Assembly: GCA_947482665.1 (NCBI GenBank)
Contig: CANKJK010000011.1
Location: forward strand, 62,001 to 126,000
DNA: 64,000 nucleotides
Source: Acidobacteriota bacterium
GTDB taxonomy: Bacteria; Acidobacteriota; Vicinamibacteria; Vicinamibacterales; UBA2999
Direction: 5' to 3'
Position 1 is the first letter of the stretch; the number at the start of each line of letters is the position of its first letter. The notes below the pieces were generated by a model that had not been told where the DNA came from, did no database searches, and saw nothing but the letters and a program-made list of their open reading frames with translations. A program made the position numbers and the translations under genes. Below, piece after piece: positions 11,791 to 44,997 of the stretch.

Positions 11791-12762
11791 ATGCGGAAGT
11801 TTTCAGTCACAACCTGTGCGCTGACGGCCGGGTTGGGCATGTTGGTGGCCGGATGCGGCCAGATCGACATGCTGAAGTCAAAGATGGCGTTCAAGGACGC
11901 CAACGGCCTGTACCAGACGCAGGATTTTCGGGGCGCCATCGCGAAGTATAAGGAGGCCCTTCGGCTGGATTCCGCGACAACCGGGCCCGCGGGGGCCTAT
12001 TTCTTCATGGCCAATAGCGCTGACAATCTGTATCGCTCTGCCAAGAAGGGTGATGCGGCGAACGACCAGTTCCTGACCGACGCCGTCGAGGGCTACAAGA
12101 ACGCAGCGCAGACCTCAACGGATCCCAAGATCAAGAAGCTGGCGCTGGAGTATCTGGTTGCGGCCTACAACAGCCCAGACAAGCTGAATGACCCGGGCCA
12201 GGCGGAACCCATCCTGCTGCAGATGATTCAGATGGAGCCGAAGGACACGGCCAACATTTTCGCCCTTGCCAAGATCTACGAGGACAGCGGCAACTATGAG
12301 CAGGCCGAGGCGATGCTGATGAAGGCGAAGGAGAGTTCGCCGAACGAGCCTGCTGTCTACATGCAGCTTGCGGGTTACTACAACCGTCAGGGCGAGTTCG
12401 ACAAGACGATCGACGCGCTACAGCAGCGCGCAGCGAAGGAGCCGAACAACCCAGAGGCGCACTACACCATCGCCACCTACTACTGGGACAAGGCCTATCG
12501 CGACTTCCGCCTGAGCGAAGTGGACAAGAAGAAGATGGTTCAGGCCGGTGTCGATCTGGTGGACAAGGCTCTGTCCATCAAGAGCGACTACGCCGAGGCT
12601 ATGGTCTACAAGAACCTTCTGCTCCGGCTGCAGGCCAATCTCGAGAAGGACCCGGCCAAGCAGGCGGCACTCCTGAAGCAGGCAGACACGATTCGGGATA
12701 AGGCACAGGAGCTGCGCAAGGAGCAGCAGGCTGCGACCGCTGGAAAGCCGGCCGGCAAGTAG
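11791..12762 (+). CDS. TPR-repeat lipoprotein
   Basis: 323 aa from the ATG at 11791 (GGGG upstream); a TTG 27 bases earlier is in frame but less likely. Signal peptide with lipobox LVAGC at about residues 19-23, so it should be lipidated by Lgt and cut by LspA. The mature part has several tetratricopeptide-like units (for example ANIFALAKIYEDSGNYEQAE and EPAVYMQLAGYYNRQGEFD), indicating a protein-interaction scaffold at the envelope. The C-terminus is Lys/Glu/Gln-rich. It is a monocistronic unit with its own promoter and a strong terminator. The specific partner is unknown. Confidence 0.85.
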   Translation: MRKFSVTTCALTAGLGMLVAGCGQIDMLKSKMAFKDANGLYQTQDFRGAIAKYKEALRLDSATTGPAGAYFFMANSADNLYRSAKKGDAANDQFLTDAVEGYKNAAQTSTDPKIKKLALEYLVAAYNSPDKLNDPGQAEPILLQMIQMEPKDTANIFALAKIYEDSGNYEQAEAMLMKAKESSPNEPAVYMQLAGYYNRQGEFDKTIDALQQRAAKEPNNPEAHYTIATYYWDKAYRDFRLSEVDKKKMVQAGVDLVDKALSIKSDYAEAMVYKNLLLRLQANLEKDPAKQAALLKQADTIRDKAQELRKEQQAATAGKPAGK

Positions 12763-25433: not shown

Positions 25434-26965
25434 ACAGGGGCTGCCGGCGACTCCTGGCCGGGGCCTGTGCCGTCTGGCTCGTGGTCCACGGCGTGGCGGG
25501 TGCTGCGCCGGCTAAGGGCCTGACAGGCGGGACCAAGGTCCGAGAGGCGTACGATGCCATTCTCGCCGGGCGCTTCGATGAGTGGGGCGCCATCGCCGCC
25601 GCCACCTGCCCCCCGGCTCCCGTCCAGGTGTGTCAGGCGCTGGAACTCGCCGCGCTGTGGTGGCAGATCCAGAGTGATCCGAACAACCGCGCACTCGATG
25701 CCAGGTTCCTCGAGAAGGCCAATGCGGCCGTCGGAGACATGGAGGCCTGGACTGTTCGAGAGCCAGAACGCGCGGAAGCGTGGTTCTACCGCGGGGCTGC
25801 CTACGGCGCCCGCGCCCAATGGCGAGTGCTGCGCGGCGAACGCCTCGCCGCCGCTCGTGACGGCAAGCGGATCAAGGACGCCCTCGAGCGGGCCCTGGCG
25901 ATCGACCCGGGCATGCACGATGCCTGGTTCGGCATCGGCCTGTACCACTACTACGCCGATGTCGCGCCCGCCGCAGCCAAGATGCTGCGCTTCCTGCTCT
26001 TCCTTCCCGGCGGCGACCGGAAACAGGGACTGGCCGAGATGCGGCGCGCCCGGGACAACGGGGCGTTGCTCCGAGGGGAAATCGACTACCAGCTGCACGT
26101 GCTCGACCTGTGGTACGAACACAATCCCCAGCACGCGCTGGAACTGCTCGAGGGGCTGCGGCGACAGTATCCAACCAACGCCCACTTCAGCCAGGTGATT
26201 GCGGAGGTTCAGGACACGTATCTCCACGACGCCGCGGGGAGTCTCCGCTCGTGGCGTGCCCTCGCGGAATCCGCCAGGGCCGGCCGCGTCCGCCAAGGGC
26301 CCATGGCGCTCGCCACGGCTCGCCTTGGCATGGCGGTCCAACTTGATCGACTGTTTGAGACAGATCTCGCCATCACCGAACTGCGAGGCCTGATCGCCAG
26401 CCGGCCCGACGCGCCGGCTGGCATCGTCCCGCGAGCCCGGTTGCTGCTCGCCGATGGGCTGAACCGGATGGGACTCCGCGCCGAAGCCGACGCGGAGTAC
26501 CGAGCCGTGTTGGCTGTCTCACCCGAGGGTGATCTGGCGAACCGTGCACGCGCCGGACTGAAGAATGCACCGGCCACCGATCTCGCGACGGCCTATCGCG
26601 CTTCACTCCAGGGCTGGCGCGCCCTTGAACAGGGCGACCTGCGGACGGCCGAGCCACTCATCGCGCACTCAATCGCACTTCGTCCCGCCGACCCGGTGTT
26701 CCGATACAGGGAGGCCCGGCTGCGTCTCGCCCTGCACGACGACACCGCTGCGCTGACGATTCTCTCGCGCGTGCTCGCGATGCGTCCCGACTCGGCGCCC
26801 ACCCTCTACGCGGCCGCGTGCGTCGACGCCGGCGCCATTGCGGAGCGACAAGGCGACGCGGCACGCGCGAGCGAGTTCTATCGCCGAGCGGAAGGGACCT
26901 TCGGCGCGGACACGCGCACCATCGCTGATGCGAAACGCGCGCGCGAACGTCTGCGCGTACCGTAG
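25430..26965 (+). CDS. Exported TPR-like repeat protein
   Basis: 511 aa from a GTG overlapping the ddl stop (GTGA), so probably coupled to it. Signal peptide (RRLLAGACAVWLVVHGVAGAAPA). The remainder is alpha-helical with tetratricopeptide-like units, for example ALAIDPGMHDAWFGIGLYHY and later repeats rich in Ala/Arg. No catalytic motif is recognised. Similar predicted exported TPR proteins are frequent in Acidobacteriota. The coupling to ddl hints at an envelope role, but this is inference. Confidence 0.78.
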   Translation: MNRGCRRLLAGACAVWLVVHGVAGAAPAKGLTGGTKVREAYDAILAGRFDEWGAIAAATCPPAPVQVCQALELAALWWQIQSDPNNRALDARFLEKANAAVGDMEAWTVREPERAEAWFYRGAAYGARAQWRVLRGERLAAARDGKRIKDALERALAIDPGMHDAWFGIGLYHYYADVAPAAAKMLRFLLFLPGGDRKQGLAEMRRARDNGALLRGEIDYQLHVLDLWYEHNPQHALELLEGLRRQYPTNAHFSQVIAEVQDTYLHDAAGSLRSWRALAESARAGRVRQGPMALATARLGMAVQLDRLFETDLAITELRGLIASRPDAPAGIVPRARLLLADGLNRMGLRAEADAEYRAVLAVSPEGDLANRARAGLKNAPATDLATAYRASLQGWRALEQGDLRTAEPLIAHSIALRPADPVFRYREARLRLALHDDTAALTILSRVLAMRPDSAPTLYAAACVDAGAIAERQGDAARASEFYRRAEGTFGADTRTIADAKRARERLRVP

Positions 26966-27058
26966 GAGCGCCGCGCCGCGCGCCCCGACTTGACACCCGT
27001 ATTGCGATTGGGCGTGGCGGAGTCCGCGAAGTTTTTGACAACCTGCTCGCTTTTGTGC

Positions 27059-27088
27059 TTGACAGCGCTCTGAGGTCGCCCGTAATCT
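27059..27088 (+). promoter_or_regulatory. Sigma-70-like promoter of the first Lys-rich mini-gene
   Basis: Consensus TTGACA (27059-27064), an 18-base spacer, and TAATCT (27083-27088). The predicted start of transcription is near 27095, giving a leader of about 85 bases. Confidence 0.7.
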
Positions 27089-27108
27089 ACATCTGGTATG
27101 AGGGCTGC

Positions 27109-27160
27109 TGGCTCAGCCCACCAATAGTGACAGGTCATGTGGCCTGTCAAGGCTGGGCCA
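27109..27160 (+). promoter_or_regulatory. Structured 5' leader of the first Lys-rich mini-gene
   Basis: A nested stem-loop. The outer 10-bp stem pairs 27109-27118 with 27151-27160 (one G-U pair). The inner 7-bp stem pairs 27128-27134 with 27143-27149 and closes an 8-base loop. A 9-base bulge sits on the 5' side and 1 base on the 3' side. It ends 10 bases before the GGAG ribosome-binding site (27171-27174). It could be a riboswitch-like or protein-binding leader; no known class is recognised. Confidence 0.6.
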
Positions 27161-27180
27161 CAACAACCGAGGAGAACACA

Positions 27181-27234
27181 ATGGCGAAGAAGGCTGCCAA
27201 GGGCGCCAAGAAGAAGGCCGCGAAGAAGCGGTAG
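27181..27234 (+). CDS. 17-residue Lys/Ala-rich mini-protein
   Basis: Encodes MAKKAAKGAKKKAAKKR, 9 Lys or Arg out of 17 residues. It has a promoter, a structured leader, a GGAG ribosome-binding site 6 bases before the ATG, and a strong terminator, so it is an independent transcription unit of about 190 bases. The composition resembles histone-H1-like and AlgP-type KAAK tails, which suggests nucleic-acid binding. I do not recognise a named family. It may alternatively be a small RNA with an incidental reading frame. Confidence 0.6.
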   Translation: MAKKAAKGAKKKAAKKR

Positions 27235-27250
27235 TTCTTCATGAAGCCTT

Positions 27251-27283
27251 GGGGGTGCTCACACCGAGCACCCCCTTTTTTTT
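27251..27283 (+). terminator. Strong terminator after the first mini-gene
   Basis: A perfect 10-bp stem (27251-27260 with 27266-27275), a 5-base loop and eight T residues. Confidence 0.95.
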
Positions 27284-27295
27284 AGTTCGTAACTT

Positions 27296-27316
27296 GCCCG
27301 TGACGTGGTCACGGGC
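27296..27316. other. Perfect 9-bp inverted repeat, possible operator
   Basis: GCCCGTGAC (27296-27304), a 3-base centre, GTCACGGGC (27308-27316). It lies 13 bases beyond the preceding terminator and upstream of the second mini-gene. It has no T run, so an operator or RNA hairpin is more likely than a terminator. Confidence 0.5.
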
Positions 27317-27360
27317 ACACAGACGCGAACCAGCAGGATCCACAACCGACGTGCCTCACG

Positions 27361-27405
27361 GCAGTCTGACGGACGATCACTGAGTGGACGCGCAATCCAC
27401 ACTGC
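27361..27405 (+). promoter_or_regulatory. Possible stem-loop leader of the second mini-gene
   Basis: GCAGT (27361-27365) can pair with ACTGC (27401-27405), and GTGGA (27384-27388) with TCCAC (27396-27400). The two stems stack directly on the 3' side and leave a large 5'-side bulge, the same layout as the first mini-gene leader but with shorter stems. Confidence 0.35.
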
Positions 27406-27422
27406 GAAAGGGGGGATTCCAC

Positions 27423-27503
27423 ATGGCAAAGAAGGCAGCAAAGAAGGCGGTCAAGAAGACGGCCAAGAAGAAGGCAGCCAAGAAGACGGCCAAGAAGCGG
27501 TAG
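27423..27503 (+). CDS. 26-residue Lys/Ala-rich mini-protein, paralogue of the first
   Basis: Begins MAKKAAKKAVKK and ends AKKTAKKR; Lys/Arg make up about half the residues, in AAKK/TAKK repeats. A G-rich ribosome-binding site (27410-27415) lies 7 bases before the ATG. It shares its first seven residues and its KKR ending with the 17-residue frame upstream. A terminator follows. No clear -10/-35 pair was found, so its promoter is unresolved. Function unknown; nucleic-acid binding is plausible from charge alone. Confidence 0.6.
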   Translation: MAKKAAKKAVKKTAKKKAAKKTAKKR

Positions 27504-27520
27504 TTTCTGCCGTGCCTTGT

Positions 27521-27564
27521 GGCGCGAGGGGCGCCGGTCACCCGGCCCTCTTGCGCCGCCTTTT
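27521..27564 (+). terminator. Terminator after the second mini-gene
   Basis: A GC-rich interrupted stem: an outer GGCGC/GCGCC, AGGG/CCCT, and an inner CCGG/CCGG around a 4-base loop, followed by TTTT at 27561-27564. It converges on the end of the HEAT-cyclophilin gene. Confidence 0.6.
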
Positions 27565-27575
27565 ACGTCTCCAGC

Positions 27576-29717
27576 CTAGCGGGCGTCCCGCCCATCCCAC
27601 ACGGTGACTCGACGAATGACGTCACCTTTCTGAATCTGCTCCACCAGCATCATTCCCTCGACCACCCTGGCGAACGCCGTGTAGCGGCCGTCCAGTTGCG
27701 GTTGCGGACTCATCGTCACGAAGAACTGGCTGCCAGCGGTATCCCGCCAGTCCAGCGCCATGCCGACCACGCCGCGCACGTAGGACGTCAGGTTCGGTTC
27801 GTCCCGAATGGTGTAGCCAGGTCCGCCGTCTCCGTCGCCCCGAGGATCGCCCGCCTGGACCACGAAGTTCGGCACGACGCGGTGTACCGGAACGCCGTTG
27901 AAGAACCCCTTGCGGGCCAGCGCCATGAAGTTGGCGACCGTCTGCGGCGCACTGGCCACATCCAATTCAAGTTCGATCACCCCGCGATCAAGTTCCAGGC
28001 GCGCGTGCGGCGAGTACGGCGGGGCGAGCAGCCACCGCCACTCGTCGAGCGGAATATCGCGTGAAGAAGGGGCGGGCCTGACCGGTTCCAGCCCGGCGTC
28101 TGGACTGCCGCCCGCTGGCACCTGTGCGCGCAGCAGGTCCGCAGCACGCACACGCACGGCCCAGTCGCGGTCGGCCAACGCGCTCTTCAGGGGCGCCAGC
28201 GCCGCGCGGGGATCAATGGCCACGAGGGCTTCGAGCACCGCCACCCGTGCCACGTACTGCGGGTCCCCGCGCCAGGCCTCCCACGCGCTGACCAGCGACG
28301 CCACGGCGGAGGCCGCGCGCAGCATACCCAGGGCGCGTGCAGCCTCCGTTCGCACGACCAGATCATCTGCGGTCAGCGCGGCGGTGATGACGGGCACTGC
28401 GTCCGGGCTCTTCGTGGCCCCGAGTGCCTTGATGACCCGAGCCACGACCCGCTGGTCGGAATCCTTCACCCGCGCCAGCAGCGCGGGCACGGCTCGCGCC
28501 GGCTCAATCGTGGCCAGCGCATCGGCCTGGGCGGCGCGCACGGTCCAGTTGGCATCAGTGTCGAGGCTGGCGATCGCGCTGATGAAGCTGTCTGGTTCGA
28601 GTCGCGCGAGCGCGCCAAGTGCCGCCGCGCGGACGTTCGGATCGGATTCCGACACCAGGTCGAGCAACGCATCCACGGTGCCCGGCGCAGACGGCATCCC
28701 GCCCAGCGCGTCCAGCGCCTCAAGGCGGAATCGTGGGTCCGAACGCCCGTCGCTGGCGACAGCCAGAAGGGCCGGCGCGGCCTGTCCGTCGCCGATGTGA
28801 CGCAGGGCACGCAGGCTCTCAATGGCGAGATCCCGATCTGTGGGCACCGCGGTGAGAATGCGCAGCAGGTCAGGCACAGCCTCCCTGGCTGCCAATGCGC
28901 CCAGGCCCTGAATCGCCATCGTGCGCGCATAGCGGCCAGGGGTCACGAGCATCGCGCGCAATGCCGGAATCGCCCGCGGGTCCTCGATTCGTTGCAGCGC
29001 CGACGCGAAGGGCCACCAGGAAGACACGGGCAGGCCATTCGGCCCCAACGTGACGGACGCCAGCGCCTCCCAGCTCCTGAGCCTCGCGAGCGCCACAAGT
29101 CCCAACCGGACGGCATCGACCGCCCCTTGCCCGATGTGTTCGTCGTCCGACGTCAGGTCCTTGACCGACCCTTCATCCAGGCGCGCCCGAACCATGGCGG
29201 CGACAGCAGCCGCGTCGTCCCGCTGTCCGATCCGTCCAAGCGCCTCTGCGGCGCGCCCCTGCACGATGGGCTGCGGATCCGCCAACACCGCGAGAAGCGC
29301 CGCGCGCGCGGAGGCATCGCCAAGCACACCGAGCGCGAACGCAGCCATCTGCCGGACCTCGAACTCCGGGTCCTTCAGCAGTGCCGTGAGCGGTGTGGCG
29401 GCTTCCGCCAGTCCCACACGTGCGGTGGCCAGCGCGGCCCGGCGCCGGACGCGCCCCTCCGGGTCGGTCAACAGGGCCACGATGTCTGTGGGTTCGGCAG
29501 GTCCGAGGACCTCGGGGCGGGTCGCCGTCGCGGGAGCCAGGACGGTTCGCGCAGGAGGATTGGGATCCCTGAGCAACCGTTGATCCTCGAGCCGCATCAT
29601 CCAGCCGAGCTTCTGCTCCCACGTGATCGTCGGGATCGGCACGATGGCAGGGACCGCTGGCGGTGCAGATGCACATGCCGCGGTGAACAGGAGGAAGAGA
29701 GTGACCGTGAACCGCAC
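27576..29717 (-). CDS. HEAT-repeat lipoprotein fused to a cyclophilin-type prolyl isomerase
   Basis: 713 aa from the GTG at 29717. Signal peptide with lipobox FTAAC, so it is a lipoprotein. About 500 residues of HEAT repeats follow (units such as VRRRAALATARVGL and VRQMAAFALGVLGD). The C-terminal 150 residues are a cyclophilin domain: VPVHRVVPNFVVQAGDPRGDG, GMALDWRDTAGSQFFV, then LDGRYTAFARVVEGM. Cyclophilins isomerise X-Pro bonds, here at the cell envelope, with the HEAT part as a likely client scaffold. A TATCAT box 9 bases before the start suggests a leaderless mRNA. Confidence 0.9.
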   Translation of the reverse strand: MRFTVTLFLLFTAACASAPPAVPAIVPIPTITWEQKLGWMMRLEDQRLLRDPNPPARTVLAPATATRPEVLGPAEPTDIVALLTDPEGRVRRRAALATARVGLAEAATPLTALLKDPEFEVRQMAAFALGVLGDASARAALLAVLADPQPIVQGRAAEALGRIGQRDDAAAVAAMVRARLDEGSVKDLTSDDEHIGQGAVDAVRLGLVALARLRSWEALASVTLGPNGLPVSSWWPFASALQRIEDPRAIPALRAMLVTPGRYARTMAIQGLGALAAREAVPDLLRILTAVPTDRDLAIESLRALRHIGDGQAAPALLAVASDGRSDPRFRLEALDALGGMPSAPGTVDALLDLVSESDPNVRAAALGALARLEPDSFISAIASLDTDANWTVRAAQADALATIEPARAVPALLARVKDSDQRVVARVIKALGATKSPDAVPVITAALTADDLVVRTEAARALGMLRAASAVASLVSAWEAWRGDPQYVARVAVLEALVAIDPRAALAPLKSALADRDWAVRVRAADLLRAQVPAGGSPDAGLEPVRPAPSSRDIPLDEWRWLLAPPYSPHARLELDRGVIELELDVASAPQTVANFMALARKGFFNGVPVHRVVPNFVVQAGDPRGDGDGGPGYTIRDEPNLTSYVRGVVGMALDWRDTAGSQFFVTMSPQPQLDGRYTAFARVVEGMMLVEQIQKGDVIRRVTVWDGRDAR

Positions 29718-43268: not shown

Positions 43269-44988
<1,720 letters not shown>

Positions 44989-44997
44989 GACGGTGAA

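Follow-up and report, generated by a model that had tools for sequence, protein, structure and literature searches.

A conserved lysine-rich micropeptide gene with structured leaders in Vicinamibacterales

Described systems closest to the locus

AlgP is an H1-like protein rich in lysine, alanine and proline whose tail peptides bind DNA and which localises to polyphosphate granules, the tail being required for granule spacing (PMC9239181). Hc2 of Chlamydia varies in length through Lys-rich elements (PMC2848022), and DNA binding is reported for known H1-like proteins (PMC9239181, PMC2848022). Acido-1 and Acido-Lenti-1 (RF01686, RF01687) are structured RNAs from Acidobacteria, and the table of the article on them gives no accession for the Solibacter-1 motif (PMC2864571).

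The window, by which we mean the whole stretch of 64,000 nucleotides of acidobacterial DNA that was analysed, carries a locus whose peptides share a Lys/Ala-rich, low-complexity and length-variable character with the H1-like proteins (Hc2, PF07382; NF038053 of Burkholderiales; the AlgP and PhaF tails of Pseudomonas), but they are micropeptides of 14-60 residues with no second domain and no KPAA repeats, and they stay below the family cut-offs. When four peptides were compared with Pfam and NCBIfam, no model reached its cut-off: HC2 (PF07382) scored 13.7 of 40 bits and NF038053 12.6 of 80 bits with the 60-residue form, and frame 2 of the window was unmatched. The 60-residue form also had no match among PDB sequences. 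The genome of the window also encodes a SWIB-domain protein with a Lys/Ala-rich N-terminal tail in the style of the micropeptide, but its tail is attached to the folded SWIB domain, whereas the micropeptide is the tail alone:

L003:1174-1539 (G000:C14), minus strand: SWIB-domain protein, N-terminal tail beginning MAKKATKKKAAKKSAKKAVK

Acido-1 and Acido-Lenti-1 are likewise structured RNAs of Acidobacteria, but the window has no match to either. Amino-acid attenuators of the his, trp and leu type consist of a short frame biased to one amino acid and then a terminator; the locus resembles them in both respects, but no biosynthetic gene follows, and downstream of the first frame a second one is missing at 12 loci or more. 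Lys-rich disordered tails are known in kind, and what is new is a free-standing, syntenic and often two-frame gene with structured leaders. Frames so short are easily overlooked, and no curated family library that we searched covers the gene. The string MAKKAAK had no match in open-licence literature, and we found no description of the gene among open-licence titles and abstract starts on small frames of Acidobacteriota, structured RNAs and Lys-rich H1 or AlgP proteins.

Layout, conservation and neighbourhood of the locus

A preliminary description of this DNA proposed a complete miniature unit that annotation would miss, made up of a promoter (TTGACA-18-TAATCT), nested stems of 10 and 7 pairs, a ribosome site, a frame of 17 codons and a terminator ending in eight T. 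Every one of these elements was recovered in place, and the miniature gene is real and conserved in Vicinamibacterales; the unit, however, is half of a two-frame locus, the other half being a second Lys-rich frame with its own structured leader (27423-27503) that had been overlooked. The features of the locus in the window are as follows:

27032-27040, plus strand: upstream TTTTTGACA, whose own TTGACA starts 24 nt before the -35 element
27059-27064, plus strand: -35 element TTGACA, preceded by conserved TTTGTGC
27075-27102, plus strand: imperfect 28-bp dyad centred after the -10 element, consensus CTCATnCAnnATnTAnATnnTGnATGAG, left half decayed in the window
27083-27088, plus strand: -10 element TAATCT, separated from the -35 element by an 18-nt spacer and followed by conserved ACATCTGGTATGA
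27103-27122, plus strand: 5' hairpin S1, 5 bp (27103-27107 with 27118-27122), placed by homology
27109-27160, plus strand: long stem S2 (27109-27118 with 27151-27160; 10 pairs, one of them G-U), enclosing the hairpin 27128-27136/27141-27149, in which the 7-pair stem is 27128-27134/27143-27149
27170-27174, plus strand: Shine-Dalgarno AGGAG of frame 1, read from the sequence
27181 (ATG) to 27234 (TAG), plus strand: frame 1, MAKKAAKGAKKKAAKKR, 17 residues, 9 of 17 Lys or Arg
27251-27283, plus strand: intrinsic terminator of frame 1, 10-bp stem (27251-27275) and T8 (27276-27283)
27346-27372, plus strand: frame-2 leader hairpin, window variant GUGCC-UCAC-GGCAG, with a covarying outer helix
27406-27417, plus strand: Shine-Dalgarno element of frame 2, GAAAGGGGGGAT; GGGGGG in 68 of 77 frame-2-type leaders
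27423-27503, plus strand: frame 2, MAKKAAKKAVKKTAKKKAAKKTAKKR, 26 residues, paralogue of frame 1
27521-27564, plus strand: terminator-like stem and T4 after frame 2, seen by eye and absent from the terminator scan output

The -10 element agrees with TATAAT at 3 of 6 letters, a poor textbook match, and TTGACA-18-TAATCT is absent from the output of a generic promoter scan of the window; the frame-1 RNA would be expected to start near 27095, as placed from the promoter sequence. Upstream TTTTTGACA recurs in many members of the window's family, and the -35 TTGACA does not vary among 57 aligned members, which were chosen by a pattern requiring it. The dyad over the -10 element ranks first among 160 centres, with 8.2 of 14 matches where the mean is 3.5 (sd 1.1), and may be a candidate operator, a reading that we treat as a lead only because the runner-up centre reaches 7.0 of 14. 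AGGAG or GGAGG is present in 71 of 74 frame-1-type leaders. Between the frame-1 terminator and the frame-2 leader, a perfect 10-bp hairpin with a 3-nt loop (27295-27317, plus strand) was seen by eye; relatives often have a different hairpin there.

A 251-base region of the locus matched 54 of 59 genomes, the window's own included, at E <= 0.01, many of the weak matches reflecting Lys codons only. Thirty oriented loci, 29 of which were aligned, have in common the promoter block, the leader and a frame of the form MAKK...KKR or KKK. Promoter loci were searched for with the exact pattern TTGACA-N16-19-TAATCTACATNTNGTRTGA, which found 90 stretches in the GTDB genome collection; 73 of the 80 matches listed are titled Acidobacteriota or a subgroup, the rarer record names among them being presumably groups within Acidobacteriota. 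In a phylum sample the same pattern matched 29 of 396 genomes, all in the window's order, and a reversed-pattern control gave 0 among the matches listed for those 396 genomes. Two pattern matches in Solobacterium records (L063, L083) have no Lys frame and were dropped, reducing 97 loci to 95, and at all 95 distinct promoter loci that were kept a Lys-rich MAK frame of 14-60 residues follows, starting 87-252 nt past the first base of the -10 element. Two frames are present at 56 of the 95 loci and one at the other 39, some of which are cut by the record end. The frame rule was an ATGGCNAAR start and more than 30% Lys/Arg; this rule itself accounts for part of the high Lys share, whereas nothing in it excludes acidic residues, which are absent all the same. 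Five records titled Cyanobacteria, Woeseiaceae, Acidimicrobiia (two) and Bifidobacterium breve (L042, L044, L062, L065, L072) carry this order's locus and flanks, so their titles or bins are probably wrong.

R1, a covariance model of the promoter and 5' hairpin built on 57 sequences, matched 134 of 193 genomes of the class, 133 in the order plus G453 from a sister order, and gave no match in the other 59, which lie inside and outside the order. Under Infernal's stricter filters, R1 was also run on a phylum sample of 392 genomes, where it matched 41 of the 42 that belong to the order (the window's own among them), 0 of the 4 other genomes of the class and 0 of 346 genomes outside the class. Each matching genome has a single match, except for four genomes of genus g48. 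Three near-complete genomes of the order (G053, G517 and G519, family f8) gave no R1 match and have no Lys-rich frame within about 1.5 kb or about 6 kb beside the cyclophilin gene; in these the gene appears to have been lost or relocated, and because they lack the frame there, it is not needed everywhere. Judged by sequence comparison, Vicinamibacterales (Acidobacteriota) have a conserved gene at this locus, and chance structure is ruled out by this conservation, which is the decisive test.

The neighbourhood is conserved as well, and the frame is present in relatives that keep the flanking genes. The cyclophilin part was located at 86 of the 95 loci, downstream and convergent in 85 and in an inverted block in one (L027); a D-Ala-D-Ala ligase gene lies upstream in 65, a TPR gene occurs in 57 (upstream in 56) and tgt in 48, counts taken over loci many of which are too short to show all genes. 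Farther out lie dNK, accD, folC and lptD. The flanking families of the window were checked with Pfam; ddl, accD and folC are names read from families, folC from a match to the Mur ligase C-terminal domain only.

The order consists mostly of uncultured soil and aquatic bacteria, and members of the gene family occur in sister orders of the class too. Beside the same HEAT-cyclophilin gene lie MAAKKKAKKAAKKKK in G255, MAAKKAAKKAAKKKK in G411, MPAKKKAAKKATKKKK in G367 and MAKKKAAAKKKATKVTKKKAAKKK in G453, and in G120 the frame MPAKKKASKKATKKKK is found on the locus's ddl-TPR side, with the HEAT-cyclophilin gene of that genome about 3 kb away. In these five genomes the frame is kept at the same locus and the promoter and leader have diverged; the GAAAGGGGGGAT ribosome site is present in G255, G411, G367 and G120, but not in G453. 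The sole occurrence found outside the class, in G153, shares the GAAAGGGGGGAT ribosome site, and a cyclophilin match in a different orientation lies about 0.4 kb from the frame (within 0.5 kb):

L231, G153:C113 about 12008-12043, minus strand: frame MAAKKKAAKKKATKKKK, in an AT-rich stretch

With a strict pattern, G153 alone matched among 41 genomes of its class, the 40 others giving nothing. Phylum pattern searches for the GGGGGGAT ribosome site matched 13 of 392 and 6 of 392 genomes and were too strict, missing known members, so that they carry no weight as evidence of absence; two of the 13 matches (L229, L230) are ordinary longer frames.

Coding constraint and leader structure

Across 151 frames the peptides consist of Lys, Ala and Gly with a few Arg, Thr and Val, are of low complexity (49.5% Lys, 27.9% Ala), carry a net charge of +8 to +28 and lack D, E, F, W, Y, I, L and C; 148 start with MAKK and 137 end with KKR. 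The absence of F, W, Y, I, L and C from all 151 is not what a small hydrophobic type I toxin peptide would show, and the Lys/Ala-rich composition agrees with the histone-tail-like peptide suggested in the preliminary description. Frame length varies in whole codons. Among 28 distinct 16-residue frames, compared in sequence pairs that are not independent, 453, 693 and 1985 differences fall at codon positions 1, 2 and 3 (1985 of 3131 at the third), with 1557 synonymous against 693 non-synonymous codon changes. The bias is weaker among 35 distinct 17-residue frames (1433, 2002 and 3839), where the third position still leads without a synonymous excess (2286 synonymous, 2363 not). On these comparisons, the frame is under protein-level selection.

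Frame 1 and frame 2 of the same locus have a similarity of 0.886, compared with 0.735 for random pairings (sd 0.014), and are identical at 16 of 56 two-frame loci; this excess of resemblance suggests that the frames are kept similar by gene conversion or selected jointly. First frames of two-frame loci have 14-29 residues. Twelve single-frame loci of the short-leader type have 700 nt or more of downstream sequence, and their frames run to 29-60 residues, except L108 with 16. The peptide of such single-frame loci (L039, L047-L049, L066, L070, L096, L103, L105, L119 and L153) is thus roughly double in length, at 29-60 residues, as though the locus kept its total output of charge constant.

Among the 95 loci, 74 leaders are short (frame start less than 135 nt from the -10 element) and 21 are long. 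The fold of 27095-27285 reaches -88 kcal/mol (z -5.9), a value that none of 200 shuffles equalled, and the leader alone has z -2.6 (2 of 200 shuffles as good). The leader is structured, as the preliminary description had it, and it is also conserved in the order; the nested stem of 10 and 7 bp is only part of the conserved fold. For S1, 84.2% of cells are paired, whereas slid registers give 28-60%. Only 1 of 500 shuffles matched its covariation score, but 265 of 500 equalled its count of pairs with double changes, which is therefore not unusual. The window's own S1 is degenerate, with 2 of 5 pairs broken, and an alternative hairpin, GGGCUG (27102-27107) with CAGCCC (27114-27119), competes with S2. 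In an alignment-free comparison of the 74 short leaders, the arms of S1 and of S2 fit each other better when both come from one sequence than when they are swapped between sequences (0 of 2000 swaps reached the observed pairing for either stem); the swap shuffles ignore relatedness, and the counts rise to 6 and 1 of 2000 among 25 less similar leaders and to 242 and 115 of 2000 among 9 dissimilar ones, where the signal is lost. S1 is supported in the 21 long leaders (2 of 2000 swaps), and S2 was rejected for long single-frame leaders (1364 of 2000 swaps as good). Covariation in the stems, proposed earlier as a check, is thus found to a modest extent for S1 and S2 and disappears in the smallest dissimilar set. 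Because the 5' arm of S2 is the loop of S1, the two together would make an H-type pseudoknot with an inserted hairpin, which we infer could form.

In frame-2-type leaders GUGCC-AGGC-GGCA is identical in 46 of 77, and the outer helix of this hairpin pairs better within sequences (0 of 2000 swaps; 14 of 2000 for 15 dissimilar leaders). A sequestering stem AUCCC/GGGAU at the frame-2 ribosome site was discarded by eye, its left arm varying with no compensation. The hairpin GUGCCAGGCGGCAG was likewise rejected as a genome-wide element: its 20 matches fall in 16 of 25 genomes, 12 of them at the locus and 8 outside it, against 6 for the reversed pattern in the 25 genomes.

Rfam has no family at the locus at gathering score. 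Under relaxed thresholds, six sub-threshold matches, all below gathering score, were judged to be chance: P34 (19.6 of 44 bits), suhB (17.9 of 41) and mir-3956 (18.2 of 100) in 26950-27650 at E <= 5, and STnc320 (32.7 of 50, L015), suhB (24.4 of 41, L015) and MH_s15 (19.6 of 123) in 12 relatives at E <= 1. The window's only match at gathering score is a TPP riboswitch distant from the locus (44882-44994, minus strand; 56 bits against a gathering score of 54.3).

A cassette copy before ftsZ and the proposed function

In all four two-copy genomes, those of genus g48 (G308, G508, G510 and G511; L195, L253-L256), ftsZ follows directly after the second R1 match, which in G308 (L195) itself comes after ftsA. 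By eye, the ftsZ-side leader resembles the leader of the same-genus micropeptide gene almost to the ribosome site. These copies are the only places found with the cassette but without the Lys frame, and another coding gene is led there. The ftsZ-side copy is apparently a duplicated expression cassette, and because the cassette there serves another coding gene, the promoter-leader is best read as, and looks like, a cis-acting element.

The reading that we favour, and consider probable, is that a conserved microprotein is encoded here by a gene equipped with an expression cassette of its own; the product, a disordered polycation, is most likely a free-standing H1-like tail that binds DNA or RNA electrostatically, the leader setting its dosage in cis. 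The gene, its conservation and synteny, the coding constraint and the cassette copy at ftsZ come from direct comparison; from these we infer expression, translation level, nucleic-acid binding and regulation, with conservation behind the steps from transcription to translation, and composition and the analogy to H1-like tails behind binding. A sigma-70-like promoter, with an unusually constrained -35 element, -10 element and initial transcribed sequence, would yield a short RNA whose leader would fold into the S1 hairpin and, in frame-1-type leaders, also into the long stem S2, perhaps completing the pseudoknot. From a strong ribosome site, a disordered polycation of 14-60 residues would be translated and would bind DNA or RNA electrostatically, in nucleoid or RNA compaction or as a counter-ion, and the leader would set its dosage in cis. 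In many genomes, the window's included, the first terminator is followed by a tandem paralogue that has a second structured leader. Because the gene sits at the same spot with its own promoter and leader in most order genomes searched, its function is probably a basic one, for example neutralising nucleic acids or condensing them.

Could the RNA itself be the product, as a small regulatory RNA acting in trans, alone or in the dual-function form proposed in the preliminary description, with the peptide secondary? The transcript would be short, strongly structured and terminated, and leader letters are highly conserved inside the order. The frame, however, is kept with third-position change and whole-codon length variation, and together with its ribosome site it persists in sister orders and G153 where the promoter-leader diverges; conservation of the RNA independently of the coding frame was not found, Rfam offers weak sub-threshold matches only, and in one genus the cassette is copied before ftsZ. 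We consider this proposal distinctly unlikely and prefer a cis-acting leader to it. Less credit still goes to frame 1 as the leader peptide of a lysine-sensing attenuator, in which a shortage of Lys-tRNA would stall the ribosome and allow read-through into frame 2. A Lys-rich frame, a terminator directly after it and then another gene would suit such a device, but 39 of 95 loci (some cut by the record end) have one frame only, the frame rule finds no second frame at 12 short-leader loci where 700 nt or more of downstream sequence is available, the next gene is usually the convergent cyclophilin gene, and the downstream product is itself a Lys-rich peptide and no lysine-synthesis gene.

The remaining alternatives concern the partner of the peptide. 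Thx-type ribosomal proteins are comparable to it in size and charge, and a small basic protein associated with the ribosome or rRNA would fit its wide presence and the conservation of its promoter and ribosome site; this alternative and the H1-like tail that we prefer both involve electrostatic binding of RNA. A low-complexity peptide varying from 14 to 60 residues is, however, unlike a residue-by-residue fit to rRNA, and the 60-residue form had no PDB sequence match, so that we regard a ribosomal role as unlikely. A counter-ion peptide of polyphosphate or storage granules, like the KPAA tail of AlgP with its part in granule spacing (PMC9239181), seems improbable: no polyphosphate gene is among the ten flanking genes compared, and the peptide is without the N-terminal domain of AlgP. 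Composition alone cannot name the target because the peptides are of low complexity, and polyphosphate, membranes and ribosomes are other polyanionic partners that the H1-like tail may have.

If the peptide is a nucleic-acid counter-ion, it would be a minimal bacterial counterpart of the H1 tail, and the role of lone disordered lysine tails would be directly testable with a 17-residue synthetic peptide. A further proposal, which we offer tentatively and think rather doubtful, is that the operator-like dyad over the -10 element and the pseudoknotted leader form a new cis-regulatory class coupling the supply of a nucleoid-condensing polycation to growth, captured by ftsZ in one genus so that condensation and division share control, with the peptide perhaps acting back on the leader of the RNA that encodes it. 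The ftsZ copies are a natural test of what the cassette senses.
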